A stretch of DNA of 64,000 bases from Limnobacter alexandrii (GTDB lineage: Bacteria; Pseudomonadota; Gammaproteobacteria; Burkholderiales; Burkholderiaceae_B): positions 62,001-126,000 of the forward strand of contig NZ_SWKN01000010.1 of the NCBI RefSeq assembly GCF_005871185.1, written 5' to 3'. Below the pieces are notes generated by a model. That model searched no databases. It had not been told where the DNA came from and saw only the letters and a program-made list of their open reading frames with translations. The translations under genes and the position numbers were made by a program. Below are positions 5,325-56,378 of this stretch, piece by piece (positions within the stretch are counted from its first letter, which is position 1; every line of letters starts with the position of its first letter).

Positions 5325-5531
5325 GGTTTCTTGCCAACTCGGCATGGGTTACTTGTGCCGCACTGAAAACCGCTTGATCCCTTTTTGACTTTATTCTTGC
5401 TCACCTCGCTCGGCAAAAGGGCGGGCCGAGTCTCGGTGTCGGCGTAACGCCGAACGCTGCGACTAAACTCAAACGGGGCGGTTTTCTTGAAGTGCGTCCC
5501 AAGCAATCCCACTGCCGAGTTGGCTTAAACC
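5325..5531. repeat. Large branched inverted-repeat element C
   Basis: Nested complementary arms: GGTTT (5325-5329) with AAACC (5527-5531); the 12-base perfect arm GCCAACTCGGCA (5333-5344) with TGCCGAGTTGGC (5513-5524); TGGG with CCCA just inside; GCACT with AGTGC and AAAACCGC (5366-5373) with GCGGTTTT (5478-5485). At the tip are two side-by-side hairpins, CTCGGC/GCCGAG (5409-5430) and TCGGCG-TAA-CGCCGA (5439-5453). The architecture (long interrupted outer stem, two adjacent tip hairpins) resembles the elements at 44782 and 55431, although I see no clear sequence homology. Function is unknown. Confidence 0.65.
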
Positions 5532-5611
5532 TCGCGTGCGCGACCCATTGCAAGTTCAGCTCTGCATCACCGCTGGGTTCAACGCCCAATCGGCGGCGGT
5601 GTTTCGATCGC

Positions 5612-5760
5612 CTCGCCTTCAAGAAAACCTGCCCTTGCGTGCCGAGCAGGGCCGGTGTCGCCCGGCATGGGCGACAGAGAACGTGCCCGACCCGCTTTTT
5701 AGGAGGGTCGTTCTCAGGCATCGTGAGGTTCAGCAAGGGATAGACAGGTTTTCAGGCGAG
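5612..5760. repeat. Large branched inverted-repeat element D
   Basis: Outer arms CTCGCC (5612-5617) with GGCGAG (5755-5760); AAAACCTG (5624-5631) with CAGGTTTT (5745-5752); CCCTTGC (5632-5638) with GCAAGGG (5733-5739). Inside are two adjacent hairpins: GTCGCCC/GGGCGAC around 5657-5674, and a compound one in which GAGAA/TTCTC encloses CGACCC/GGGTCG (about 5677-5715). It again shows an interrupted long stem capped by two hairpins, like element C only 80 bases upstream. No T-run follows, so it is not an ordinary intrinsic terminator. Confidence 0.6.
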
Positions 5761-5831
5761 AGATTGAAATCCAAGCCGATTGGGCATTTAACCAGCAGTT
5801 GAGAAAGCGGAACCCAAACCGAATGAGCTCA

Positions 5832-43377: not shown

Positions 43378-43509
43378 ACTGAATATAAATTCCAAATGTG
43401 TTCCGGCTTTAAAAGTACACTTGTACACTGAAAATATGATACGGCTCCTTCAGAAGCAAATTGAGATGGCCGTAACCTTTGAAATACGACCTGTTGAGAG
43501 TTAGTGAAT

Positions 43510-44703
43510 ATGATTGAATTTTTGACCTCGGGCATTACCGGTGCCAGCATTGGCCAAATGGTGATTTACACCCTGATTGTGACCCACATCACCATTGTGG
43601 CGGTCACCGTGTACCTGCACCGCTGCCAGGCCCACCGTGCCCTGGAAGTGCACCCAGCGTTGGCGCATTTTTTCCGCGCCTGGTTGTGGTTGACCACCGG
43701 CATGAGCACCCGCGCCTGGGCTGCCATCCACCGCAAGCACCACGCCAAATGTGAAACACCCGATGATCCCCACAGCCCGCAAACCCGTGGCCTGAAAACC
43801 GTATTCTGGCGTGGTGCCGAGTTGTACCGTGCTGAATCTAAGAACAAGGAAACGCTAGCCAAGTACAGCCATGGCACACCCAGTGACTGGCTGGAGTTTC
43901 AGGTGTACGAGCGTTTCCCATGGCAAGGCGTGGGTTTCACCTTGGTTCTTAGTTTCATTTTGTTTGGATTCCCCGGTGTGAGCATTTGGGCCATTCAAAT
44001 GTTGTGGATCCCTGTATTGGCCGCTGGTGTGATCAACGGCATTGGTCACTACTGGGGGTACCGCAATTTTGATTGCCCCGACGCCAGCCGCAATATTTCA
44101 CCCCTCGGTATCCTGATTGGCGGTGAAGAGCTGCACAACAACCACCACACGCACGCCACGTCGGCCAAGTTGAGCAACAAGTGGTATGAGTTCGACATTG
44201 GCTGGATGTACATCAAGATTTTCAGTTTCCTTGGCCTGGCCAAGGTGAAAAAAGTGGCTGAATCGCCGAAGTTTTCCTCTGAAAGCAAGCCAGTACTTAG
44301 CTTGACGACTGTGCAGGCTGTTGTGAACCACCGTTACGACGTGATGGCGCGCTATGCCAGTTCCATGCGCAAGGCTTTCCGTTCTGAAGTGGCTGCTTTG
44401 AAGCAAAAAGCGGCGAATGCTCAAGAGCGCAAGGTGTTGTCCAAGGGCACCAAGCTTCTGTCGATCGACGAGAGCAAGCTGTGCGATGTGCAGCGTGCCG
44501 AGTTGGCCCAATTGTGTGCCCAGTCCAAGATGATCAACACTTTGGTTGAAATGCGCACTGAGCTTCGCCAGATTTGGGAAAAAACCAATTTGAGCCGCGA
44601 GCAAATGCTGGTTCAGCTGCAAGCCTGGTGCGAGCGTGCTGAGCAAAGCGGTATTCGCTGGCTGGAAGACATGTCGATCCGGATTCGTCGTTACGCGGCG
44701 TAA
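43510..44703 (+). CDS. Membrane fatty-acid desaturase (DesA-type, acyl-CoA/acyl-lipid delta-9-like)
   Basis: 397 residues. Three histidine boxes: HRCQAH, HRKHH and HNNHH, binding two irons, separated by membrane segments (about residues 12-35, 145-180). An extra region after residue about 250 (some 145 residues) has no membrane segment and is rich in charged helices; I have not identified it. The ATG at 43510 is preferred over the GTG at 43504 because GAGAG at 43496-43500 is at normal spacing for it. It introduces double bonds into saturated acyl chains. Strong terminator follows. Confidence 0.87.
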   Translation: MIEFLTSGITGASIGQMVIYTLIVTHITIVAVTVYLHRCQAHRALEVHPALAHFFRAWLWLTTGMSTRAWAAIHRKHHAKCETPDDPHSPQTRGLKTVFWRGAELYRAESKNKETLAKYSHGTPSDWLEFQVYERFPWQGVGFTLVLSFILFGFPGVSIWAIQMLWIPVLAAGVINGIGHYWGYRNFDCPDASRNISPLGILIGGEELHNNHHTHATSAKLSNKWYEFDIGWMYIKIFSFLGLAKVKKVAESPKFSSESKPVLSLTTVQAVVNHRYDVMARYASSMRKAFRSEVAALKQKAANAQERKVLSKGTKLLSIDESKLCDVQRAELAQLCAQSKMINTLVEMRTELRQIWEKTNLSREQMLVQLQAWCERAEQSGIRWLEDMSIRIRRYAA

Positions 44704-44730
44704 TTTGAAACTTGGTTCAATTTGTGAAAG

Positions 44731-44758
44731 CCGCTGATGAGAATCAGCGGCTTTTTTT
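44731..44758 (+). terminator. Terminator after the desaturase gene
   Basis: CCGCTGAT and ATCAGCGG with a GAGA tetraloop, followed by T7 (44731-44758). The structured element A begins only 24 bases later. Confidence 0.92.
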
Positions 44759-44781
44759 GTGGGTAGCTTGCAGGTGGTGTT

Positions 44782-44959
44782 TTGCAGCAGCGTTACCCAT
44801 CCTGCCAAGATCCAAGTCGAATTCCCCGCTTTTGATTCTGGCTTAGGGCATGCGAAACGCCAAAGCGTCTTCGCATCGCTTGCTTCGCAATCGCCCCTCG
44901 CTGCGAATCAAGCGGGCGACTTGATCTTGAATCGGCAGGATGATGCAACGCTGCCGCAA
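44782..44959. repeat. Structured intergenic repeat, copy A
   Basis: 178 bases forming a long interrupted stem with a branched tip. Arms: TTGC and GCAGCGTT with AACGCTGC and GCAA (outermost); CATCCTGCC (44798-44806) with GGCAGGATG (44934-44942); AAGATC and AAGTCG (44807-44819) with CGACTT and GATCTT (44917-44928). Within are two adjacent hairpins at 44850-44876 (ATGCGAA/TTCGCAT, inner ACGC/GCGT) and 44877-44893. It is homologous to copy B at 55431, and the differences between copies are largely paired. No T-run follows it. It lies in the convergent gap between the desaturase and rpmG. Confidence 0.85.
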
Positions 44960-45013
44960 ATCACCCAAGCCACATCTACATCAACTATTAAGCCTCGCCG
45001 AAGCACTGGCCAA

Positions 45014-45046
45014 CAAAAAACCCGCTCTGAATTTCAGTAGCGGGTT
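45014..45046 (-). terminator. Terminator of rpmB-rpmG
   Basis: Read on the minus strand, AACCCGCT with a CTGA/TCAG extension forms a stem with AGCGGGTT and is followed by a T-run (the A-run at 45014-45020 on the plus strand). It ends transcripts from the ribosomal genes. Confidence 0.85.
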
Positions 45047-45073
45047 TCTGTAGAAACAGCGAAGTAGTTTGAA

Positions 45074-45241
45074 TTACTTCAACTTGGTTTCTTTGTATGA
45101 CACATGCTTACGAACCACTGGATCGTATTTCATGATTTCAATTTTCTCGGGCTTCGTGCGCTTGTTCTTGGTCGTGGTGTAGAAGTGACCAGTACCAGCA
45201 GAAGATTCGAGTTTGATTTTTTCGCGACCACCTTTAGCCAT
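45074..45241 (-). CDS. rpmG: 50S ribosomal protein bL33
   Basis: 55 residues: [20 protein letters not shown] and then [21 protein letters not shown], a standard bL33. It lacks the four Cys of zinc-binding forms. Fourteen bases or so after rpmB; the pair is the usual rpmB-rpmG operon. Confidence 0.95.
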
Positions 45242-45254
45242 GATTTACTCCTGC

Positions 45255-45488
45255 TTAGATTTCGCCACGTGCACGAAGATCGGCCAAAACGGCATCAATG
45301 CCATTCTTGTCGATTGTGCGCAGGGCGTTGTTTGTTAGACGCAGGCGAACCCAGCGGTTTTCGCTTTCAACCCAGAACTTGCGTGACTGCAAGTTAGGCA
45401 GGAAACGACGTTTTGTTTTGTTGTTGGCGTGGGAAACTTTGTTTCCAACCATCGGGCGCTTACCCGTTACTTGACATACGCGAGCCAT
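45255..45488 (-). CDS. rpmB: 50S ribosomal protein bL28
   Basis: 77 residues. [20 protein letters not shown] followed by the basic [18 protein letters not shown] segment is typical bL28 of the Cys-poor type. Promoter of rpmB should lie in the 136 bases between it and the radC stop. Confidence 0.96.
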
Positions 45489-45624
45489 GATGACCCCAAA
45501 AAATTCAGCAAATTAGTGTATCTGCAAAACCACACGGCATAAATTGAAAAGCCATGGATTTGCGGCGAAGTCCAAGATTGTAACCAATTACGATTGTTTT
45601 GCCCAGCCTTTTTTGCGGAAAAAA

Positions 45625-46308
45625 TCAAAAAGGTGGGCGATTGTTGAGTCTGTACGAATACCCACAGGTGGGACCAACAACCAAATGGTCGACCAAGTCT
45701 ATATCAACAAGGGCCAAGGCGGCTGAAAGCTCGCGTGTCAGGCGGTCGTCCGCGCTGCTGGGGGTGCAGCAGTCGCTGGGATGATTGTGGGCCACCATGA
45801 GGCGTGGCGCATTGGTTTGTATGGCGAATTTAAGCACTTCACGCGGGAAAACAGCGGTTTTGTTGACCGTTCCACTGGACAGTATTTTGTGGTCAAGCAC
45901 TTTAAGTTGGCTGTCCAGGGCAATGACCAAAAAGTTTTCAACGTCGCTTAGGCCTATTTGAGCCCGCACAAATTGTTCAAACTGGTCAGGCGTGCTCAGC
46001 GAGTTGGGTGTCTCGCGTAATTCATGATTCAGGCAGCGTTTCGCCATTTCAAGGCAGGCACGAAGTTGCGCATATTTGGCTTCGCCAAGGCCACGAATTT
46101 GAACCCATTCCGCCAGCGAAACACGATTCAGGTTTTGTAAGCCACCGAACTGCGTGATCATTTCACGGGCCAAGTCGACTGCACTTTTGCCAGGCAGGCC
46201 TGTGCGAAGGAATATGGCAAGTAACTCGGCATCGGAAAGCGCTTGTGCCCCCTGCTTGATCAGCCGCTCGCGTGGGCGGTCGTGTTTGGGCCAGCTTTGT
46301 ATGCTCAT
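45625..46308 (-). CDS. radC: RadC-family JAB-domain protein
   Basis: 227 residues. N-terminal helix-hairpin-helix-like part (about residues 1-75, GLGEAKYAQLRA) and C-terminal JAMM-type domain with metal motif HNHPSDCCTPSSADD. The His, His and Asp ligands remain but the usual HNHPSGxxxPS pattern has Asp in place of Gly. Function is unproven; the original link to DNA repair was later withdrawn. It follows gloA by 42 bases on the same strand. Confidence 0.85.
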   Translation of the reverse strand: MSIQSWPKHDRPRERLIKQGAQALSDAELLAIFLRTGLPGKSAVDLAREMITQFGGLQNLNRVSLAEWVQIRGLGEAKYAQLRACLEMAKRCLNHELRETPNSLSTPDQFEQFVRAQIGLSDVENFLVIALDSQLKVLDHKILSSGTVNKTAVFPREVLKFAIQTNAPRLMVAHNHPSDCCTPSSADDRLTRELSAALALVDIDLVDHLVVGPTCGYSYRLNNRPPF

Positions 46309-46350
46309 GAAGAATTGAGTTGGAAAGCCACTAAGTGGCCTTCAGCCAGT

Positions 46351-46896
46351 TCAAGTTCCCAATTTGTGCAACAAGGAGGGCTGCACAATCTCGATCCAGT
46401 AACCATCAGGGTCTTTGATGAAGGCGACATCCTTCATCTTGCCTTGCTCAGGGCGTTTCACATACGAAACCTGGTTTTCGTCAAACCAGCGCACTGCGGC
46501 TGCCAGATCGGGGACCGAAAAACAAATGTGTCCGAACCCTTGTGGTTGCTGGTTTCCATCGTGGTACTTGAATTCGGGATCGTTTTCTGTGCCCCAGTTG
46601 TGGGTCAATTCCAGAATGCCCGCCTGGCTGAATGTCCAGGCCGTACGGGCGCCTTCATCTTCGGGGATTGCATCAGTTTCATTGACTCTGGCCAGAAAAT
46701 AGAGCGAGAACTTCATTTCGGGAAAGTCCAGTTTCCGGAGCACCCGCATGCCCAACACACGGGTATAAAAATCAAGTGATACTGCGGGGTCTTTCACCCG
46801 CAACATGCTGTGGTTCAAGACAAACCCTTGCGTGGCCGCAGGTGCCGTGGGGCTGACCCCGGGATGGTTCTCTGTGTTGAAGGTCATGGCGTTCAA
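46351..46896 (-). CDS. gloA: Lactoylglutathione lyase (glyoxalase I)
   Basis: 181 residues, longer than E. coli GloA (135) and resembling the long form of Pseudomonas and eukaryotes. Two glyoxalase motifs with metal ligands: NHSMLRVKD (His/Gln position), LELTHNWG (Glu), GFGHICFSV (His) and YWIEIVQP (Glu). Detoxifies methylglyoxal with glutathione. The extra N-terminal 25 residues are low complexity. Divergent from fkpB. Confidence 0.92.
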   Translation of the reverse strand: MNAMTFNTENHPGVSPTAPAATQGFVLNHSMLRVKDPAVSLDFYTRVLGMRVLRKLDFPEMKFSLYFLARVNETDAIPEDEGARTAWTFSQAGILELTHNWGTENDPEFKYHDGNQQPQGFGHICFSVPDLAAAVRWFDENQVSYVKRPEQGKMKDVAFIKDPDGYWIEIVQPSLLHKLGT

Positions 46897-47057
46897 ACTC
46901 CTTGGTTCGTTTTTGAATGCGAATATTTAGTAATCACATGAATGTTATTACCACAATGTGAGCTTGAACTCGAACCATTCGCGCCCGTGTCGGGCTGCCT
47001 GAGTGCTTCCAAAGGCGTAGAATAGAGCCGTTTTTGAAATGAATTCAGGATGTTGAA

Positions 47058-47522
47058 ATGACTGACGCAGTACAGCCCAAGCCCGTGGTGAACGAATCTT
47101 CGTTTGTGACCCTGCATTACCGCATTCGCTTGGCTGACAGCCAGCAGGTGATTGTGTCCACTTTCGAGGACAAACCCGCAACCTTGAGCATTGGTGCAGG
47201 CCAATTGGCTGAGGGGCTTGAGCGTTGCCTGTTCGGCATGCAGGCCGGGCAGCGTGACATATTTACTTTGCCTGCCGGTAGCGGTTACGGCGACACCAAT
47301 CCCGATTTGTACCGCCCCGTGAGCAAGGCATTGTTGTCGAAGTACGCTGAAGAAGGCACCACGTTTGAGCCTGGTGAGTTTGTGCATTTTCCCGCACCCG
47401 ATGGTGGCCAGTTTGCTGGCACCGTGGTGGAAGAGCGTGAAGATGACATTTTGTTCGACTTTAACCACCCCTTGGCAGGCAAGGCACTGACCTTTGAAGT
47501 GCAGTTGATTGGGGTGCTGTGA
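47058..47522 (+). CDS. fkpB: FKBP-type peptidyl-prolyl isomerase (FkpB/SlyD-like)
   Basis: 154 residues. [36 protein letters not shown] and [13 protein letters not shown] match SlpA/FkpB, including the insert domain in the middle. It isomerises prolyl bonds in the cytoplasm. Seven bases upstream of ispH, the standard fkpB-ispH pair. Confidence 0.93.
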
Positions 47523-47529
47523 GGTGAGT

Positions 47530-48459
47530 ATGGAAATTAGCCTGGCCCAACCGCGCGGTTTTTGTGCCGGTGTAGACCGCGCCATTGAAATTGTGGAACG
47601 CGCGCTTCAGCAGTTCGGTTCGCCCATTTACGTGAAGCATGAAATTGTGCACAACAAAACGGTGGTCGAGGACCTGCGTGGCAAGGGTGCAATTTTTGTG
47701 GATGAACTGGAAGATGTACCCACTGGCTCCACAGTTGTTTTTTCTGCCCATGGTGTGTCGCAAGACGTTCGCACCCAAGCGGAAAGCCTGGGCTTGAAGG
47801 TCTTTGATGCCACTTGCCCGTTGGTGACCAAGGTGCATGTGGAAGTGAGCAAAATGCGTGCGCAGGGTTGTGAAATCATCATGATTGGCCATGAAGGCCA
47901 CCCTGAGGTAGAAGGCACCATGGGGCAGGTGAAGGACGGTATTTATCTGGTTGAAACCGAGGACGATGTGGCCAAACTGGACATTGCAGCGGGTACGCAA
48001 CTGGCGTTCGTTACTCAAACCACTTTGAGTGTGGATGATGCCTCCAAAGTGATCGCGGCGCTGAAAGCGAAGTATCCCGACATTCGCGAGCCCAAGAAGG
48101 CGGACATTTGTTATGCCACGCAAAATCGCCAGGATGCCGTGAAATTCATGGCTCGCCAGGTTGATTTGGTTTTGGTGGTGGGTAGCCCCAGCAGCTCCAA
48201 TTCCAATCGCTTGCGCGAGGTGGCAGAGAAACTGGGCGTGCCAGCCAAGTTGATTGAGAATGCCGACAGCCTGGAGAAAAGCTGGTTTGAGGGTGTGAAA
48301 CACATTGGCTTGACAGCAGGTGCCTCAGCCCCGGAGCACTTGGTTCAGGGTGTGGTGAAGCGCTTGAAAGAGTGGGGTGCTTTGTCGGTTCGTAACATGG
48401 AAGGCGTGGAGGAAAACATTGCTTTTCCAATGCCTAAAGGTTTGAACCCCAGGGCTTGA
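47530..48459 (+). CDS. ispH: 4-hydroxy-3-methylbut-2-enyl diphosphate reductase
   Basis: 309 residues. Last step of the MEP pathway, making IPP and DMAPP. The three cluster cysteines are visible in GFCAGVDRA (residue 12), [11 protein letters not shown] (near 96) and [10 protein letters not shown] (near 197); the catalytic Glu is in [13 protein letters not shown]. The ATG at 47530 has GAGGTGAG upstream; the frame extends to 47509 but the family start is [10 protein letters not shown]. Its last codons lie within a short direct repeat. Confidence 0.96.
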
Positions 48460-48474
48460 ACCCCAGGGTTTGAA
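48440..48474 (+). repeat. Short tandem repeat at the ispH stop
   Basis: The 13-base unit TTGAACCCCAGGG occurs twice (about 48442 and 48457), separated by a CT, across the end of ispH; the second copy supplies the TGA stop. The third unit is degenerate (TTTGAATTT). Probably slippage. Confidence 0.6.
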
Positions 48475-48488
48475 TTTCTGGTGTTGAA

Positions 48489-49784
48489 TTAGCCCGGCTG
48501 TTTGGGAGTGGCCAGTACCTGGTCCACCCTGTTTCGGTCGACGTCGACCACCTCAAAACGCCAGTTGTTCCAGTCGAATTTCTCGGTTTTCTTCGGAATT
48601 CGACCCAGGGAAGCCAACACGAAGCCACCCACCGTATGAAAGTTGCCCAAATCTTCTTGGGGCAAGTCGCGTATGCCCAATTTGATTTTCATTTCATCGA
48701 TGGGCAGCAAACCATCGAGTAACCAGGAACCATCTTCGCGTTTTACGGCCAGTGCTTCTTCGGGGGTGTCCATCATGGGCATCATATCGCCTACCACGCT
48801 TGATAAAACATCGTCGATGGTCACAATGCCCTCGGTCATGCCGAATTCGCTGACCACAAATGCAAATGTTTTTTTCTGCTGACGGAATGTGCGCAGCAAA
48901 TCAACCAGCGTGAGCGAAGCTGGCACAAACAGCGCGTTTTGTAGCGGAATTTCCGCGAAGTCGATGTCGCCTTCCATGGCGGCTTGAAGAATGTCGTGGC
49001 TTTCTGCCACGCCGATGACTTGCTGCAAACTGCCTTTGCAAATGGGCAGCATGGAGTGGGGCGCTTCGCGCAGCAAGCGCAGGTTGTCCTCGCGCGGCGC
49101 GTGCAGATCAAGATAGGCGATGTCGCTGACCGGTGTCATGACCGAGGCCAGGCGTCGGTCTTCCAAGCGCAGCACATTGCTCATGAGGTGGCGTTCTTCG
49201 GGGGCCAGCATGCCTGTTTTTGCGCCTTCGTCCAGAAAAGCCTGTATTTCTTCGATAGTGCTGACGGCCGGTGCGGCTTTGAACGGGATGAAACTGAGCA
49301 CCAAATCAGAGCCCTTGGACAACAAGGCGATGGCGGGGCTGAGCAGCTTCAGGAATACCGACATGAAGGGGGCGCAGAATGCAGCAACTTGTTCCGGGTT
49401 GGCAATCGCCAGACGCTTGGGAACAATTTCACCAAAAATAATTGAAAAACCGGTAACCAAGGCAATGGTCACGGTGAATGAAATGACATTGGCCCAATCG
49501 GTCAGCGCGGGGACATATTGATCGATGACCTGCTGAAAGGTGGCTGTGAGCGCGGATTCTCCATAAATACCCATGAGAAGTGCGGCAGCCGTAATGCCGG
49601 TTTGTGTGGCGGCCAGAAGGCGGCTTGGGTTGTCCATGATTTGCAGGGCAATTCGGGCTTTTGGGTTGCCTGCATTGGCCATGGCTTGTAGTTTGGAGCG
49701 GCGGCTGGAGGCCAGCGCCATTTCTGACAAGGCAAAAAAGCCAGAGATCAAAATCAAAAGGACCAAAATCCAGAAGGCATTCAT
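48489..49784 (-). CDS. CNNM/CorC-family membrane protein (DUF21 and CBS domains)
   Basis: 431 residues. Four membrane helices in an N-terminal DUF21 domain (about residues 1-165), a paired CBS domain (about 190-330) and a C-terminal CorC_HlyC transporter-associated domain (LLDGLLPIDEMKIKLG...FHTVGGFVLASLGRIP). Often annotated hemolysin; more likely linked to Mg2+ or Co2+ efflux or homeostasis, as for CorB/CorC. Convergent with ispH and divergent from trhO. Confidence 0.88.
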   Translation of the reverse strand: MNAFWILVLLILISGFFALSEMALASSRRSKLQAMANAGNPKARIALQIMDNPSRLLAATQTGITAAALLMGIYGESALTATFQQVIDQYVPALTDWANVISFTVTIALVTGFSIIFGEIVPKRLAIANPEQVAAFCAPFMSVFLKLLSPAIALLSKGSDLVLSFIPFKAAPAVSTIEEIQAFLDEGAKTGMLAPEERHLMSNVLRLEDRRLASVMTPVSDIAYLDLHAPREDNLRLLREAPHSMLPICKGSLQQVIGVAESHDILQAAMEGDIDFAEIPLQNALFVPASLTLVDLLRTFRQQKKTFAFVVSEFGMTEGIVTIDDVLSSVVGDMMPMMDTPEEALAVKREDGSWLLDGLLPIDEMKIKLGIRDLPQEDLGNFHTVGGFVLASLGRIPKKTEKFDWNNWRFEVVDVDRNRVDQVLATPKQPG

Positions 49785-49875
49785 GTTGTGTGTTCTTTTT
49801 GTGGGTATTGCTGCCGCAAATCGCGGTGCTGCAAGCAGTTTACCAAAGCCCGTGTCGCTTTGGCTTTTTGCTTGA

Positions 49876-49904
49876 TTGGGTAAAACCCGGGGCTCGGTTA
49901 CAAT
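49876..49904 (+). promoter_or_regulatory. Probable sigma-70 promoter of trhO
   Basis: TTGGGT (49876-49881) and TACAAT (49899-49904) with a 17-base spacer, about 35 bases before the trhO start; a reasonable -35/-10 pair for transcription rightward. Confidence 0.45.
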
Positions 49905-49938
49905 AGCGGGCTAAGTTAAATCAACAGAAAGAATTGCC

Positions 49939-50934
49939 ATGGCGATGACTGAAGACACCATTCCACAATCTGACCAAATCGTAGTCGCTGCCTTGTACAA
50001 GTTTGTCAGCCTGCCCGATTTTGAAGAGATCAAGCCAAGTCTTGAAGCGGTGTGCACGAGCAACGGCGTGCTGGGTACTTTGTTGTTGGCCAAAGAGGGG
50101 ATCAACGGCACTGTGAGTGCGCCACGTGAAGGCATTGTTGCATTGATGAATTACTTGTGGAGCGACGCCCGGTTTGCCGATTTGGCACCCAAGTATTCGA
50201 TTGCACCCGAACAGGCCTTCACGCGGATGAAAGTGAAGTTGAAGCGCGAGATTGTCACCATGGGCAAAGACGGTATCGACCCCAAGCGCCTGGTGGGCCG
50301 TTATGTAAAACCTGCCGACTGGAATGCCCTGATTCAAGACCCGGACACCTTGGTGATTGATACCCGCAACAATTACGAGTACGCAATTGGTACTTTTGAG
50401 GGCGCAGTCGACCCAGCCACCACCACATTCCGTGAATTCCCGGAATGGGTTGAAAAGAATTTGAAAAGCCTGCCTGCCGAGCAGCGACCCAAGAAAATTG
50501 CCATGTTTTGTACGGGTGGTATTCGCTGCGAGAAGTCGACTGCGTACATGCTGGAACAGGGTTTCGACGAGGTTTACCACCTTGAAGGCGGCATTTTGAA
50601 ATACCTGGAAGAAATTCCGGAAGAACAAAGCTTGTGGAAAGGCGAGTGTTTTGTGTTTGACCAGCGGGTGTCAGTGACCCACGGTTTGCAGGTGGGGCAT
50701 TACGACCTGTGCCACGCTTGCCGCATGCCGATCACGGATGAAGAAAAGCAAAGCGAAAAATACATTCAGGGCGTGGGTTGTCCGCATTGCTATGATTCAT
50801 TGACGGATGATCAAAAGCAGCGTTTTGGCGAGCGCCAAAAGCAAATTCAGTTGGCCAAAATGCGCAATGAAAAGCACATTGGCCGCAAGATGCCACCCAA
50901 AGAAATGCCCACCAAAGAAACGCATGCGGAGTAA
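49939..50934 (+). CDS. trhO: tRNA uridine(34) hydroxylase TrhO
   Basis: 331 residues. Oxygen-dependent 5-hydroxylation of uridine 34 in tRNA, the first step of cmo5U-type modification. N-terminal part ([17 protein letters not shown]...[13 protein letters not shown]), rhodanese domain with the active Cys in [12 protein letters not shown], and C-terminal CHACRMPIT...CPHCYD Cys pairs with a tail. An in-frame ATG two codons later is an alternative start. The GST gene follows by 5 bases. Confidence 0.93.
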
Positions 50935-50939
50935 ATAGG

Positions 50940-51617
50940 GTGGAGCACCAACTGGGTTTGCCTGTGCTGTACACCTTTCGCCGCTGCCCCTATGCCATGC
51001 GCGCAAGGTTGGCCATCGTGGCTGCTGGTTTGAAGGTCGAAGTACGCGAACTGGTGTTGCGTGCAAAACCTGCTCACATGCTTGAAATTTCACCGAAGGG
51101 CACGGTGCCGGTGCTTTGGTTGCAAGACGGTACAGTGATTGATGAAAGCCTGGATGTAATGTGCTGGGCAGTGGGTCAGAATTTTCCAGCAAGCTGGTTG
51201 GTGTTGACAGCCGAACAGCAGCAACAGTGCGATGAATGGATCGCGTTGCTCGACGGCGAGTTCAAACGCAACCTTGACCGCTACAAGTACCCGCACAGAT
51301 ACCACACGGACACCGACACCTGCGATCCTCTCGAGCACCGCGCGGCGTGTGAGAAAATTCTGACCCTGTGGGATGAAGCACTGGCGCAACAAGGCCCATG
51401 GCTATTTGGCAACAGGCCCAGCTTCGCAGACTATGCAATTTTGCCTTTCGTGCGCCAGTTTCGAATTGCCGACGAGGCCTGGTTTGATGCTGTAGCGGGC
51501 TACGATGCGCTCAAGTTGTGGCTCAGCGCTTTTTTGGCATCGCCTGTGCTGGAACAAGCCATGGTGAAGTACACCCCTTGGCAACCCGGCGACACACCTT
51601 TAACCTTTCCGGGTTAG
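50940..51617 (+). CDS. Glutathione S-transferase family protein
   Basis: 225 residues, begun with GTG five bases after the trhO stop. Thioredoxin-like N-terminus with the CPYA motif in FRRCPYAMRARLAI, then GTVPVLWLQDGTVIDESLDVM (glutathione-binding cis-Pro and SES-like loop), and an all-helical C-domain with GNRPSFADYAILPFVRQF. The Cys in place of Ser/Tyr suggests a glutaredoxin-like or omega/beta-type GST; the substrate is unknown. Confidence 0.85.
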   Translation: MEHQLGLPVLYTFRRCPYAMRARLAIVAAGLKVEVRELVLRAKPAHMLEISPKGTVPVLWLQDGTVIDESLDVMCWAVGQNFPASWLVLTAEQQQQCDEWIALLDGEFKRNLDRYKYPHRYHTDTDTCDPLEHRAACEKILTLWDEALAQQGPWLFGNRPSFADYAILPFVRQFRIADEAWFDAVAGYDALKLWLSAFLASPVLEQAMVKYTPWQPGDTPLTFPG

Positions 51618-51663
51618 AGACGACCCTCTACGATTTTCTGGTCAAGTTTCTATACACTCGCAA

Positions 51664-51679
51664 GTTACGCAACAGTAAC
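51664..51679. promoter_or_regulatory. Inverted repeat upstream of the FabG-type gene
   Basis: GTTAC and GTAAC around GCAACA, about 66 bases before the start codon, within the promoter region. A related GTTACA/TGTAAC palindrome lies upstream of the neighbouring TetR gene at 56390-56415, so this is a candidate TetR-family operator. Confidence 0.35.
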
Positions 51680-51744
51680 ATTGTCTTGCTGGGCTATGCT
51701 AAGCCCTGAAAAAAGACATTCCCCCTATAAGAAGGACGAGACTC

Positions 51745-53184
51745 ATGGCCGACAAAATTCTTGAATTTGTTCACACCTCCACAGGTAAACAAATTGCCGC
51801 CGCACTGGGCCTGCCCGTGCCCCCACAGTTGAAGCGCGCCAAAGCTGGCTATGCTGAAAAATCGTTGGCCAGTGCCAATGCTTTGGTGGGTGCCAGCGCA
51901 TTTGGCCCGGTTGCCACCGCGGTGGTGAAGGGTTTGAATGCCATGGGCGCGTCCATTAAAGTGTCAGCCGATTTGGCGGGTCTGGATGGCATTAAGCAAG
52001 CTGCTGCAAAAGCCAAAGTGGAAGTGAGCATTTCTCAGGCCGACAACGGCGTGCCCGAGAACGTGTATGTGCTTGATGTAACAGCCGCTGCCAATGTGGC
52101 TGACCTGCGTTTGTTGTACGACTTCTTCAACCCACGCCTGCGCAAAGTGCCATCGAACAGCCGCATTGTGGTGATTGGTCGCACACGCGGTGATTGCAAA
52201 GACGCCTTGGCTGAAACAGCCCAATCGTCATTGCCCGGTTTCATTCGCAGCCTTGCAAAAGAAAGCGGCAAGAATGGCACAACCGCCAATTTGATTCAGG
52301 TAAAAACCGGCGCAGAAAATGGCATTGAAGGTGCATTGCGCTTTTTCCTGAGTCCCCATTCAGCATTCGTAACCGGCCAGGTGTTGCCCGTGGTTGGCGC
52401 ACCCAAGGGTGTGAAAGTTGCTGCGTTTTCCGAAAAGCCATTGACCGGCAAGCTGGCCGTGGTCACCGGCGCTGCACGCGGCATTGGTGCGGCCATTGCC
52501 GAAGTGTTGGCCCGTGAAGGTGCAACCGTGATTGGTGTGGACCGCCCCGCGGACGAGAGCGTGTTGGGTACCACCATGAGCAGCATTGGCGGTATTGCCT
52601 GCCCCTTGGACATTACCGATGCAGACGCCGGCAAGAAGCTGGCTGCAGTTGCGGCTGACGCAGTGGCCAATAAGGGCGGCAAGATCGACATCATCGTTCA
52701 CAACGCTGGTATTACCCGAGACAAAATGATGCGCAACATGGCCGCCCACCTGTGGGACATGGTGCTGGATGTGAACCTGGGTGCGATTGTTCGTTGTAAC
52801 GACCAATTGTTGGCAGGCGATGCCTTCGGTGCGAATGCCCGCATTGTGTGTATTTCATCGATTGGTGGCATTGCCGGCAACGCAGGCCAAACCAACTACG
52901 CCGCTACAAAGAGCGCCGTGATTGGTTATGTGGATGCCATGGCCAAGCAACTGGAAGGCAAGGGCATTTCAATTAACGCGATTGCGCCTGGCTTTATCGA
53001 AACTCAAATGACAGCGGCTATTCCTGTGGTAACCCGCGAAGTGGCACGTCGTTTGTCCAGCCTGTCGCAGGGCGGTTTGCCAGTGGACATTGCTGAAGCA
53101 GTGACCTTCATGGCCAGCCCCTTGGCTGCGGGTGTAAACGGCGCCACGCTGCGTGTGTGCGGACAAAACCTGGTGGGTGCGTAA
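51745..53184 (+). CDS. 3-oxoacyl-ACP/CoA reductase, high-molecular-weight FabG type
   Basis: 479 residues, about twice normal FabG length. The C-terminal half (residues about 230-479) is a complete SDR: GAARGIGAAIAEVLA for NAD(P), HNAGITRDKMM, SSIGGIAGNAGQTNYAATK with catalytic Ser, Tyr and Lys. The N-terminal half (about 1-220) has a related Rossmann-like core without the catalytic motif. This is the layout of mycobacterial FabG4. First gene of an operon with a thiolase and a MaoC hydratase. Confidence 0.9.
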   Translation: MADKILEFVHTSTGKQIAAALGLPVPPQLKRAKAGYAEKSLASANALVGASAFGPVATAVVKGLNAMGASIKVSADLAGLDGIKQAAAKAKVEVSISQADNGVPENVYVLDVTAAANVADLRLLYDFFNPRLRKVPSNSRIVVIGRTRGDCKDALAETAQSSLPGFIRSLAKESGKNGTTANLIQVKTGAENGIEGALRFFLSPHSAFVTGQVLPVVGAPKGVKVAAFSEKPLTGKLAVVTGAARGIGAAIAEVLAREGATVIGVDRPADESVLGTTMSSIGGIACPLDITDADAGKKLAAVAADAVANKGGKIDIIVHNAGITRDKMMRNMAAHLWDMVLDVNLGAIVRCNDQLLAGDAFGANARIVCISSIGGIAGNAGQTNYAATKSAVIGYVDAMAKQLEGKGISINAIAPGFIETQMTAAIPVVTREVARRLSSLSQGGLPVDIAEAVTFMASPLAAGVNGATLRVCGQNLVGA

Positions 53185-53239
53185 TTTATTTATCAATTGA
53201 ATACGCTGCCCGCAATTAAAAAATTATCTGGAGAAAACT

Positions 53240-54520
53240 ATGAAACACGGTCGTCGCGTTGCCATTATTGGCGGTTCACGCATTCCATTTGCACGTTCAA
53301 ACACAGCCTACATTGGTAAATCCAACCAGGACATGCTGACTGCAGCATTCCGTGGCGTGGTCGACAAATTCCAGTTGCACGGTGAAGAACTGGGCGATGT
53401 GGTTGCTGGTGCTGTAGTGAAGCACAGCCGCGATTTTTCCCTGTGCCGTGAATCTGTATTGAGTTCAGGCCTGAGCCCAATGACACCTGCATTTGATATT
53501 CAGCAGGCGTGTGGCACTGGTTTGGAAGCTGCAATCGTTGTGGCCAACAAAATTGCCTTGGGTCAAATTGAAGTGGGCATGGCTGGTGGTGTAGACACCA
53601 CCACCGATGCACCAATCGCAGTGAGCGAAGGCCTGCGCAAAATTTTGCTGGAAGCCAACCGCGCCCGCGACACCAAAGGCAAATTGGCTGCCCTGCTGAA
53701 AATTCGCCCGAAGCACCTGGCACCACTGCCACCTGCCAACGCTGAACCCCGTACAAAAATGAGCATGGGTGCGCACTGTGAAGTGATGGCGCAAACCTGG
53801 GGCATTACCCGCGAAGAGCAGGATGAGTTGGCTGTAAGCAGCCACTTGAAAGCCGCCAAGGCCTACGAAGAAGGTTTCTTTGATGACCTGGTGGTACCTT
53901 TCAATGGTTTGACCCGCGACAACAACTTGCGCGCCGATTCTTCAGTAGAACGCCTGCAAGGGTTGAAGCCCGCGTTTGACCGCAAGAGCGGCAAGGGCAC
54001 CATGACTGCCGGTAACTCCACACCGTTGACCGACGGCGCGTCTGCCGTGTTGTTGGCTTCTGAAGACTGGGCAAAGGCACGTGGCATTCAGCCATTGGCT
54101 TACCTCACATTCAGCGAAACGATTGGTGTTGATTTCGTGTCGGGCAAAGAAGGTTTGTTGATGGCCCCGGCCTACGCGGTGCCACGCATGTTGAAGAAAG
54201 CCAACATGAAGCTGCAAGACTTCGATTTTTATGAAATTCATGAAGCGTTTGCCGCGCAGGTTTTGTGTACATTGAAGTCTTGGGAAGATCCCAAGTTCTG
54301 CAAGGAAAAACTGGGTCTGGATGCCGCGCTGGGTTCAATTGACCGCAGCAAGCTGAACGTGAAAGGTGGTTCCTTGGCGGTGGGTCATCCATTCGCAGCC
54401 ACAGGCGGCCGCATTATTGCGACACTGGCCAAACTGCTGAATGAGAAAGGCAGCGGCAAAGGCTTGATCTCCATTTGTGCAGCCGGTGGTATCGGTGTAA
54501 CTGCAATTATCGAGAAGTGA
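53240..54520 (+). CDS. Acetyl-CoA C-acyltransferase (FadI/FadA-like thiolase)
   Basis: 426 residues. Catalytic Cys in DIQQACGTGLEAA, His in LAVGHPFAATGGR and second Cys in ISICAAGGIGV; also EIHEAFAAQVL. The length and the insertion after residue 140 are like FadI. It either cleaves 3-ketoacyl-CoA or runs in the condensing direction. Located between the reductase (55-base gap) and the hydratase (4-base gap), so a complete reduction/hydration/thiolysis set is encoded together. Confidence 0.92.
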   Translation: MKHGRRVAIIGGSRIPFARSNTAYIGKSNQDMLTAAFRGVVDKFQLHGEELGDVVAGAVVKHSRDFSLCRESVLSSGLSPMTPAFDIQQACGTGLEAAIVVANKIALGQIEVGMAGGVDTTTDAPIAVSEGLRKILLEANRARDTKGKLAALLKIRPKHLAPLPPANAEPRTKMSMGAHCEVMAQTWGITREEQDELAVSSHLKAAKAYEEGFFDDLVVPFNGLTRDNNLRADSSVERLQGLKPAFDRKSGKGTMTAGNSTPLTDGASAVLLASEDWAKARGIQPLAYLTFSETIGVDFVSGKEGLLMAPAYAVPRMLKKANMKLQDFDFYEIHEAFAAQVLCTLKSWEDPKFCKEKLGLDAALGSIDRSKLNVKGGSLAVGHPFAATGGRIIATLAKLLNEKGSGKGLISICAAGGIGVTAIIEK

Positions 54521-54524
54521 AATC

Positions 54525-55415
54525 ATGAGCGTGAATGACACCCTGAAAGCAGCGGCGAAATTTTTCGAGCTGTCTGAATTTCCAAATGGCAAGGCGCTGC
54601 TGCTGAAGGCTGCCACCACGTCCAACAAAAAACCAAAACCCGACACGCAGGCGGCCCGCCTGGGTGCACGGGTGAAGAAAGTGTTTATCGACCGTGAGTG
54701 GGTGCGCCAGTACAACGCGGTGTGTGGTTTCAAGGAAGATGAAATTTCCTTGACAGCACCGCAGGTGGTGGCTTCCCCATTGCACATGTATTTGCTCAGC
54801 CGTCCAGAGCACCCCATGCCGATGTTGGGCATGGTTCACTTGCACAATTCAATTGAATGTAGCAAGCCGCTGGAATACGGTGTGCCCTACGATGTGGTGG
54901 TGACTGTGGGTGAAACCCGCAGCATTTCACTGGGCCTGGAATTTGATGTGCACACGCAGTTTTTGGTGGGTGAAGAAGTGCACTGGAGCAGCGTGATGAC
55001 CATTTTGTGCCGTGTGAAAGGAATGCCAAAGCCGGCAACCAAGCCAGCACCTGTTGAGCCATTGAGTGCGGTTGGTGCGCAATATGCTGCTGTGACAGTA
55101 CCCGAGAACCAAGGCCGTAAATACGCCAAGGTGTCGAACGATTACAACCCGATTCACTTGTACGCGCAAACCGCGAAAATGTTTGGTTTCAAGCAAGCGA
55201 TTGTGCATGGCATGTGGACTGCTGCAAAAACTTTGAGCATTGTTGAAGCTGCTTTGGGTGTGCACGCAAGCAAGTTTGATTTGTCGTTTAAGCAGCCGGT
55301 GTTTTTGCCGTCTGGCATTTCGGTGAAGCACGTAACAGCGGATGGTGCTTCGAAGTTTGAGGTGCTGGCTGAGCGTGATTCGAAAGTGCTGATGGTGGGA
55401 AGTATTGTAAGTTGA
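54525..55415 (+). CDS. MaoC-family (R)-specific enoyl-CoA hydratase-like protein
   Basis: 296 residues. The C-terminal hotdog (about residues 185-285) carries the catalytic Asp and His in VSNDYNPIHLYAQTAKMFGFKQAIVHGMW. The N-terminal part is a second, degenerate hotdog, so the protein forms a double-hotdog hydratase like mycobacterial HtdX. It probably hydrates trans-2-enoyl-CoA to the (R)-3-hydroxy form used by the SDR gene upstream. Last gene of the operon, converging on the TetR gene. Confidence 0.87.
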   Translation: MSVNDTLKAAAKFFELSEFPNGKALLLKAATTSNKKPKPDTQAARLGARVKKVFIDREWVRQYNAVCGFKEDEISLTAPQVVASPLHMYLLSRPEHPMPMLGMVHLHNSIECSKPLEYGVPYDVVVTVGETRSISLGLEFDVHTQFLVGEEVHWSSVMTILCRVKGMPKPATKPAPVEPLSAVGAQYAAVTVPENQGRKYAKVSNDYNPIHLYAQTAKMFGFKQAIVHGMWTAAKTLSIVEAALGVHASKFDLSFKQPVFLPSGISVKHVTADGASKFEVLAERDSKVLMVGSIVS

Positions 55416-55430
55416 TTGGTGCGGTGTGTC

Positions 55431-55615
55431 GGCTTCGCATCGCGTTACTCATTGCGCCTTAATCAAGTCGAATTCCCCTTCTTGACTCTGGCTTGGGGCA
55501 TGCGAAACACAAAAGTGTGTTCGCATCGGATCCTCGCGGATCCGCCCCTCGCTGCGAATCAAACCGGGCGACTTGATCTTGAATCGGCGCAATGATGCAA
55601 CGCTGCTGCAAAGCC
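55431..55615. repeat. Structured intergenic repeat, copy B
   Basis: Homologous to copy A at 44782. Arms: GGCTT/AAGCC and GCGTT/AACGC (outermost); CATTGCGCC (55450-55458) with GGCGCAATG (55586-55594); ATCAAGTCG (55462-55470) with CGACTTGAT (55569-55577). Tip hairpins at 55500-55526 (ATGCGAA/TTCGCAT, inner ACAC/GTGT) and 55527-55544 (CGGATCC/GGATCCG). At least six stem positions differ from copy A as paired changes. It fills most of the convergent gap between the MaoC gene and tetR, with no intrinsic terminator visible. Confidence 0.85.
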
Positions 55616-55715
55616 TTGGCACTCCACTAACTACGGGCAGGCTTTCAGGCGGGGGAGGGCATGCGACTTGGCAGATGCCATTAAGCAATCGACAAATCCA
55701 ACTTTGAAACAACCG

Positions 55716-56378
55716 CTATCGCGCGGAAAGTCCCGGCATCAAACTGGTTTCGATCATTTTCTGCATGTCCCGAATCGGAATTTCCGGGTGTTGAATCCAC
55801 CACCTGGCACCCGCTTCAACCGCCCCTACCATGATGTTGGCCAGGGCAACGGCCTGAATGCCTGCCTTGTCACCATTCTTGCCTTTGGGTGGGTCGTTGA
55901 GTTCTTCGATGGTTTTGGCCGAGGCTTCAATAAAGCTGTTTCGGAAAAAGGCCACCTTCTCGCCAACCGGACCCACACTGGTCAATGCTTCGTTGTACAA
56001 CACCGACCAACCATCCCTGTGGCGTTCTACAAACGTCAAGAAGCTGAGCATGATCAGTTTCAGTCGCTCTTTTGGATTGGGGTTGGCCATCAGCAAGCTT
56101 AAACCTGACATGAGGTGATTGCCGACCTGTGTAATGGTGGCGAGGTAAAGCGCGTCTTTGGAGCCAAAGTAGCGGTAGAGCAGCGGCTTGGTGACACCTG
56201 CGCCTTCGGCGATTTGCTCCATGCTGGTGGAGTGGAATCCGTGGCGAGAAAACACTGAGCCAGCAACATCCAGAATTTGACTCATTCGTTGTTCTTTGGG
56301 CACCTTTCGTGTGCCCAGGCGTTTGGTCTCGAGGGTAGGCGCTGCGTTTTTATTGTTGTCGTTCGCTTTTTTCACCAA
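55716..56378 (-). CDS. TetR-family transcriptional regulator
   Basis: 220 residues. The N-terminal HTH is VFSRHGFHSTSMEQIAEGAGVTKPLLYRYFGSK (recognition helix region about residues 45-75). The long C-terminal helical domain would bind an acyl-CoA or fatty-acid ligand if it regulates the neighbouring lipid operon, but the ligand is unknown. It is convergent with that operon and has its own terminator-less gap, which is filled by copy B. A GTTACA palindrome lies 12 bases upstream of its start. Confidence 0.9.
   Translation of the reverse strand: MVKKANDNNKNAAPTLETKRLGTRKVPKEQRMSQILDVAGSVFSRHGFHSTSMEQIAEGAGVTKPLLYRYFGSKDALYLATITQVGNHLMSGLSLLMANPNPKERLKLIMLSFLTFVERHRDGWSVLYNEALTSVGPVGEKVAFFRNSFIEASAKTIEELNDPPKGKNGDKAGIQAVALANIMVGAVEAGARWWIQHPEIPIRDMQKMIETSLMPGLSAR

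Follow-up and report, generated by a model that had tools for sequence, protein, structure and literature searches.

The window analysed here is a stretch of 64,000 nt from the genome of Limnobacter alexandrii (assembly GCF_005871185.1, contig NZ_SWKN01000010.1, positions 62,001-126,000). Two of its intergenic regions each contain a large Y-shaped imperfect palindrome, named copy A and copy B (Table 1). Both belong to a family specific to Limnobacter, here called E1, whose members are about 190 nt long. A first-pass annotation of the window had placed both copies correctly, although the spans that it gave were too short at both places.

Table 1. Features of the window around copies A and B and in the third mosaic (positions are those of the window)
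Feature	Positions	Strand	Basis or remark
E2-core copy in the third mosaic of the window, 79% identical to L007 E2	5365..5490	-	C10:67365-67490
Second E2-like palindrome with a different inner module, beside the E2-core copy	5580..5790	+	by eye
Fatty acid desaturase gene, ending before copy A	43504..44703	+	PF00487
Putative intrinsic terminator serving the upstream desaturase gene, ahead of copy A	44727..44758	+	by eye; absent from consensus-scan list
E1 copy A with type 1 arms, an imperfect Y-shaped palindrome flanked by convergent genes	44776..44966 (ends approximate)	-	
E1 core of copy A	44822..44924	+	covariance model R1, 95.1 bits
Putative rpmG intrinsic terminator, on the opposite flank of copy A	45014..45047	-	by eye; absent from consensus-scan list
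Ribosomal protein L33 gene, convergent towards copy A	45074..45241	-	PF00471
MaoC-like dehydratase gene, ending just before copy B	54525..55415	+	PF01575
E1 copy B, type 1 arms, layout as copy A	55425..55620 (ends approximate)	-	
E1 core of copy B	55472..55576	+	covariance model R1, 90.2 bits
3' remnant of E2 with one small hairpin, downstream of copy B	55635..55679	+	compared with complete E2 copies
TetR-type regulator gene, convergent towards copy B	55716..56378	-	PF00440

The paired differences that had been described between the two copies can be seen in the sequence. In the middle stem three pairs are changed in step, from CATCCTGCC/GGCAGGATG to CATTGCGCC/GGCGCAATG, the first tip hairpin goes from ACGC/GCGT to ACAC/GTGT, and the second tip hairpin is swapped with repair of a C.T mismatch. 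Both copies have strong predicted folds, with z-scores of -8.59 and -8.05 against 200 dinucleotide shuffles each, none of which folded as well. The strand had to be corrected, as the better-folding one is the minus strand in both copies (-114.5 against -96.2 kcal/mol for the plus strand in copy A, and -107.6 against -89.0 kcal/mol in copy B). The window contained no match to an Rfam family at the gathering threshold, in agreement with the first-pass annotation, which knew of no named family of this layout.

A blastn search with copy A of its own genome (3.49 Mb in 14 contigs) gave 14 matches including itself, of which three have type-1 arms along their length, one is a type-1 remnant and ten match in the core only (about 75 nt). 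By reading and folding, the E1 core was found on at least three kinds of outer arms in this genome, and a fourth kind exists in genomes G015 and G012. The covariance model R1, built from 67 E1 cores, identified at least 174 matches, spread over 12 of the 16 Limnobacter genomes with 3 to 34 per genome as lower bounds; 27 of these come from G012, a genome with 6% contamination. Of 250 genomes sampled from the family, the 234 that do not belong to Limnobacter gave no match; the filters were stricter there than in the Limnobacter search. A search of this kind had been proposed in the first-pass annotation, whose suggestion of a large palindromic repeat was correct. The exact hairpin-1 pattern occurs in 62 stretches of the reference genomes, all of them by title Limnobacter or metagenome-assembled Burkholderiales or Gammaproteobacteria. 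A phage or plasmid origin was rejected, since copy A had no blastn match among plasmid and phage records and the exact hairpin-1 pattern was absent from viral contigs.

Of 143 R1 matches (out of the 174), 139 were carried forward and correspond, after merging of repeats, to 116 distinct E1 copies; the four left out are two second fetches of one place and two weak matches. In five genomes type-3 copies form an inverted pair with a spacing of about 0.7-1.2 kb, G009 having two such pairs (L004, L107-L111), and in L. alexandrii the type-3 pair flanks a small open reading frame (ORF) that by eye is lipoprotein-like.

A second Y-shaped palindrome, E2, of opposite polarity, is located within 700 nt downstream of 47 of the 116 distinct E1 copies. 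For its inner module there are at least two alternatives, and after E2 come small repeated hairpins. The E2 core (137 bp) has 40 matches in the L. alexandrii genome, including the query, 15 of which are 94-98% identical over the same 137 bp, and the E2 family is apparently younger than E1. Seven inverted pairs of the core were found, with 129-173 bp between their members, and E2-core matches are present on contigs C1, C7, C8, C9, C10, C12, C13 and C14 of G000. The five standalone E2 copies that were examined share a different left neighbour, and one of the five copies is followed by a 43-nt tandem unit. In the third mosaic of the window the neighbours of the second E2-like palindrome are a UvrD-type helicase gene on one side and, on the other, a convergent ORF that has no Pfam match. 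The mosaic formed by E1 and E2 resembles in its organisation a bacterial interspersed mosaic element (BIME), with far larger units. Elsewhere in the window, an inverted repeat at 51173-51366 was considered as a miniature inverted-repeat transposable element (MITE) and dropped, as it looked coding when read.

The covariation between the two arms was evaluated in an alignment of 67 of the 72 copies found by pattern, five near contig ends being dropped. Paired cells amounted to 92.7%, against 87.0% in shuffled alignments and 37-43% when the partners were slid, and cells with double changes numbered 144 against 47.6 +/- 4.6 in shuffles. Thirteen pairs had a double change against 9.2 expected from the shuffles, 2 of 500 of which reached 13; of five measures in all, that of further pair types showed no excess (25 against 28.9). 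Hairpin 1 is almost invariant, partly because the search pattern required it.

A home-made, R-scape-like null that takes the tree into account was also applied, with substitutions re-dealt along a FastTree tree (60 null alignments for the core and 40 for type-2 copies). With only the pairs of the structure counted, E < 0.05 was reached in the core by 5 of 37 pairs, all of them in tip hairpin 2, and four pairs were significant when all column pairs were counted. For the type-2 copies (n = 42, after removal of two near-identical ones from 44), whose structure was predicted from the same alignment as was tested, the corresponding numbers were 13 of 54, all in the outer stem, and three. Column pairs outside the structure gave no significant case in either the core or the type-2 alignment. 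The outer stem of type-2 copies varies freely with the pairing kept, one pair being A-T in 21 copies, G-C in 14 and T-A in 6. The paired covariation first noticed between copies A and B is, by this home-made null, real and holds in the wider alignment. Covariation over a conserved fold is what is looked for in a structured RNA, and it is equally expected of a folded DNA strand.

The two strands can be told apart by the mismatches that they bear. The left arm was aligned to the reverse complement of the right arm with strand-blind scoring and isolated non-Watson-Crick oppositions were counted in 99 copies, 17 of the 116 being dropped (16 without anchors and one with a short flank). On the E1 plus strand 216 A.C and 50 G.T oppositions were observed, together with 200 others, and therefore the minus strand holds most of the G.T wobbles. 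When one representative per cluster was taken, A.C to G.T was 80 to 18 with clusters at 90% (40 clusters) and 33 to 6 at 85% (18 clusters). The minus strand also folds better in 86 of the 99 copies with RNA parameters and in 95 with DNA parameters. In E2 the picture is reversed: its plus strand is the more stable in 42 of 47 copies and carries 36 G.T, 10 A.C and 59 other oppositions. Both tests thus change sign between E1 and E2, which speaks for a method without one-sided bias, and a mutation bias linked to transcription would require opposite prevailing directions over E1 and E2.

The motif of the tip loops is likewise restricted to one strand. The analysis was limited to distinct tip-2 hairpins, 57 in number, since the 188 sequences mix numbered genomes and named contigs that partly represent the same genomes; 15 of the 188 had no parsable tip hairpin 2 and were omitted. 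On the minus strand the loops are GNA in 14 hairpins, GNRA in 14, GNYA in 15 and of other kinds in 14. GNA or GNNA loops are thus present in 43 of 57 hairpins on the minus strand and in none of the 57 on the plus strand, where neither GNRA nor UNCG loops were found. RNA loops of the GNRA type require a purine at the third position. Since in E1 GNYA is as common as GNRA, selection on single-stranded DNA (ssDNA) is preferred here over selection on RNA. GNA and GNNA loops, with any base at N, are described as extraordinarily stable DNA mini-hairpins when seated on G-C pairs (PMC4686876). The structured RNA that the first-pass annotation had offered as one possibility is consequently not favoured: the loops fit the GNNA motif of DNA better than GNRA, and a simple sigma-70 consensus scan revealed no promoter reading into copy A or copy B. 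For its other claim, that the folded form is under selection, the support now goes further than the evidence then given, because the mismatch bias and the loop motif are both strand-specific. Neither sequence conservation nor the copying of one arm from the other alone predicts these two features.

The genomic context could be classified for 98 of the 116 copies (13 were short and 5 unassigned), using ORFs filtered by codon usage, a few boundaries of which look wrong. Seventy copies are between convergent genes, 27 between co-directional genes (21 running with them and 6 against) and one between divergent genes, and the left gene points at E1 in 91 of the 98. Because copies at orthologous sites are not independent, each site group was also counted once, which gave 29 convergent and 7 co-directional sites (5 with and 2 against) out of 36. 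Among the other adjacent gene pairs of the same short loci only 1 of 54 is convergent, a small and biased baseline. Repetitive extragenic palindromes (REPs) and BIMEs are intergenic and mostly located between convergent or unidirectional genes, and the same is found for E1. A strict scan placed an intrinsic terminator between the left stop codon and E1 in 3 of the 98 copies, fewer than were recognised by eye. Regarding the gene upstream of copy A, the C-terminal part of its product, behind the desaturase domain, matches a transposase profile of the ISL3 type (PF01610, E 4e-8).

Most of the copies are at shared sites. With flanks taken further out, which keeps E2 repeats from the right flank, 95 of the 106 copies with testable flanks are shared at an orthologous site in another genome. 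Nevertheless 35 of these 95 (14 in G015) are closer to a paralogue of the same genome than to the orthologue. We read these figures as shared E1 sites that may have undergone later homogenisation or replacement. The term mobile, also offered earlier for these repeats, therefore holds only in part: the copies closer to a paralogue agree with it, whereas the shared sites are not recent insertions.

At the site of copy A (locus A), genome G004 has no E1 and shows an overlap of 3 bp where the stem base would be; other genomes bear different arm types there. In G002 the same site (L122) has, by eye, a different giant palindrome followed by tandem repeats, and the E1 matches of that genome are three, the best with E 4e-5; this intergenic site seems to attract such palindromic structures. 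At locus B all nine relatives fetched have E1 (four) or pieces of it (five). The G004 copy (L123) is broken at CATGCGA and joined to a small hairpin starting with the same seven bases, which looks like a deletion between short repeats.

The genomes were also searched for machinery that could act on these elements. The Y1 transposase domain PF01797, which is that of the REP-associated tyrosine transposases (RAYT or TnpA-REP), is absent from the L. alexandrii genome and occurs in 1 of the 16 Limnobacter genomes, the contaminated G012. Mobilisation by RAYT was rejected on this absence from the own genome and from 15 of 16 genomes of the genus. The integron integrase profile TIGR02249 was above the cut-off in only two of the 16 genomes (G015 and G010), the own genome not being one of them. 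A reverse transcriptase was considered as a driver as well, and the own genome has one RVT_1 match. The SbcD profile (TIGR00619) had no match in any of the 16 Limnobacter genomes, and in control genomes 13 of 14 matched, 8 of them over the cut-off. The SbcCD nuclease of Escherichia coli is described as cleaving hairpins (PMC6265447).

Among the known systems close to E1 are the REP, BIME and REPIN (REP doublets forming hairpins) elements with their RAYT. According to two papers (PMC8266576, PMC3733652), these are also intergenic, multicopy mosaics of palindromic units placed at gene 3' ends, and the ssDNA hairpin of one strand is the active form, which resembles what is proposed below for E1. 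However, REPs are 20-50 nt long and carry a GTAG-like tag, whereas E1 is Y-shaped and about 190 nt long, and no such tag was seen by reading at the bases of its hairpins. In addition, REP systems have a RAYT, while 15 of the 16 Limnobacter genomes have no Y1 transposase. Nested REP dimers, such as GTAG-15 of A. variabilis and CGTC-1 of H. neapolitanus, are similar to E1 in having an inner palindrome within a longer one (PMC3733652). In E1 and E2, unlike these dimers, the inner modules are three-way junctions and the same module is seated on several outer arms.

Integron attC sites are imperfect palindromes with a variable tip that are read as one folded strand. In contrast to them, E1 shows no R boxes or cassette arrays, and the integrase is restricted to the two genomes mentioned. 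The double-hairpin elements of mitochondria are dispersed, consist of two hairpins and undergo compensatory changes, but they belong to organelle DNA and are much smaller than E1; to our knowledge no strand polarity has been described for them. In the titles and beginnings of abstracts on Limnobacter repeats, REP and mosaic elements and DNA loops, with most subscription journals outside the scope, we recognised no account of E1 or E2, and a word search of two papers on palindromic repeats gave no mention of Limnobacter. E1 and E2 form a genus-specific intergenic palindromic mosaic, and the surprising features of it are the strand polarity and the DNA-type loops.

The structure of these elements is clear, whereas their function is only inferred. 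We tentatively suggest, at somewhat less than an even chance, that E1 belongs as one module to an intergenic mosaic, BIME-like and specific to Limnobacter, in which one strand is selected to fold as ssDNA. The mosaic consists of E1, E2 and further long palindromes, all imperfect and with a three-way junction at the tip. Different outer arms share the inner tip modules, and repeated pieces of arms flank the palindromes. In each module one strand would be selected to fold when single-stranded, which may happen in a replication gap, in an extruded cruciform or in an intermediate of transfer or repair, and E1 with its minus strand and E2 with its plus strand would make up an oppositely polarised pair. 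A putative hairpin-recognising protein would bind or cut the folded strand, and its action may have spread or homogenised the family. The copies that remain would be those that damage no promoter and no coding sequence, and the absence of SbcCD would let such long palindromes remain. A bolder proposal, which is possible and which we consider rather doubtful, is that of a new class: Y-shaped, ssDNA-selected elements of 140-190 nt with GNA or GNNA caps, which would stand at the 3' ends of genes in pairs of opposite polarity and would be processed, in a lineage lacking SbcCD, by a hairpin-recognising protein not described so far.

Several results weigh against selection of a folded DNA strand. 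The wobble bias fades as copies are merged, being 14 to 3 with clusters at 80% (9 clusters; sign test p 0.06), and other mismatches are about as frequent as A.C (200 against 216). In free folds the numbers of G.U pairs are nearly equal, with means of 4.2 of 74.8 on the plus strand and 4.5 of 74.4 on the minus strand, so the polarity is visible in the energy and at positions where the arms oppose each other, and the G.U count does not show it. Regarding the loops, 14 of the 57 are outside the GNA/GNNA rule, T-A instead of C-G closes 5 of the 14 loops of the GNA type, and E2 tip loops follow the rule only in part. No candidate for the hairpin-recognising protein was found, given the distribution of Y1/RAYT and of the integron integrase reported above, and the prevalence of shared sites argues in the same direction. 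The lack of SbcD concerns the 16 Limnobacter genomes and may not be peculiar to the genus. Furthermore, for the 39 copies listed from two genomes, orientation with respect to the replichores was not significantly biased (24 of 39, p 0.20), and a lagging-strand bias was rejected for this reason.

The placement of the elements could also be explained at the RNA level, with E1 and E2 acting in read-through transcripts at gene 3' ends, in the manner suggested for REPs: they would protect mRNA 3' ends, terminate transcription or insulate convergent genes. The strand on which each module folds best is that transcribed from the far gene, and the module would stop the far transcript before the near gene. 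We regard this explanation as unlikely, though still a live rival. In its favour, the elements follow stop codons, with the left gene directed at E1 in nearly all classified copies and most sites convergent, the opposite polarity of E1 and E2 suits two converging transcripts, tolerance of G.U is a property of RNA too, and the small yield of the strict terminator scan means that many left-gene transcripts may enter E1. REPs themselves are reported to be mainly between convergent or unidirectional ORFs and are argued to be mostly transcribed and possibly active as RNA (PMC3733652). Against it, the loops lack the purine preference at the third position that would be expected of RNA GNRA loops, and in the 21 copies that run with both neighbours the right neighbour does not feed the minus strand. 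Both neighbours of copy A appear by eye to have terminators of their own; simple scans gave no promoter at copy A and, at copy B, one 9-of-12 match pointing away from E1.

Homogenisation by mutation without any function, where template switching rewrites one arm from the other and the lack of SbcCD allows persistence, is the other live rival and in our view improbable. Template switching is reported to homogenise the arms of inverted repeats (PMC8604942) and quasipalindromes to be its hotspots in E. coli (PMC7202029), and the block-wise change of tip 2, the undetected SbcD in all 16 genomes and the E1-free locus A of one genome with its 3-bp overlap are consistent with such a process. Being blind to strand, it predicts equal numbers of A.C and G.T, against the 216 to 50 found, and no fixed loop motif, against 43 of 57 on one strand and none on the other; moreover, the core is still recognisable in 12 genomes. 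As sole cause it is disfavoured. A classical MITE, non-autonomous and moved through its own terminal repeats by a DDE transposase, would account for the dispersal in several subfamilies, for the many near-identical E2 cores and for the existence of one E1-free site. That site, the only clean one, has an overlap of just 3 bp and can equally well be a deletion, 95 of 106 testable copies are at sites common to several species, and the outer arms vary by type with no common terminal repeat seen (DDE transposases themselves were not searched for), which makes a MITE very improbable. Recombination sites of the integron attC kind, read as the folded bottom strand, are scarcely credible: strand-specific folding and a variable tip are attC-like, and one of the two genomes with an integrase above the cut-off is that with most E1 copies, but the stem bases of copies A and B have by reading no pair of R boxes, the own genome has no integrase above the cut-off, and E1 copies are dispersed and not in cassette arrays.

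Compensatory change is usually taken as evidence of RNA, and in E1 it is the type of mismatch together with the loop motif that marks the strand which folds. If selection on a folded DNA strand is the true explanation, these elements would preserve, across the genome, a natural record of how hairpins of single-stranded DNA have been selected, and they would offer a means, from sequence only, to separate selection on DNA from selection on RNA in palindromic repeats. The upkeep and movement of bacterial palindromic repeats that have no transposase would then become testable in Limnobacter, a genus that can be cultured.

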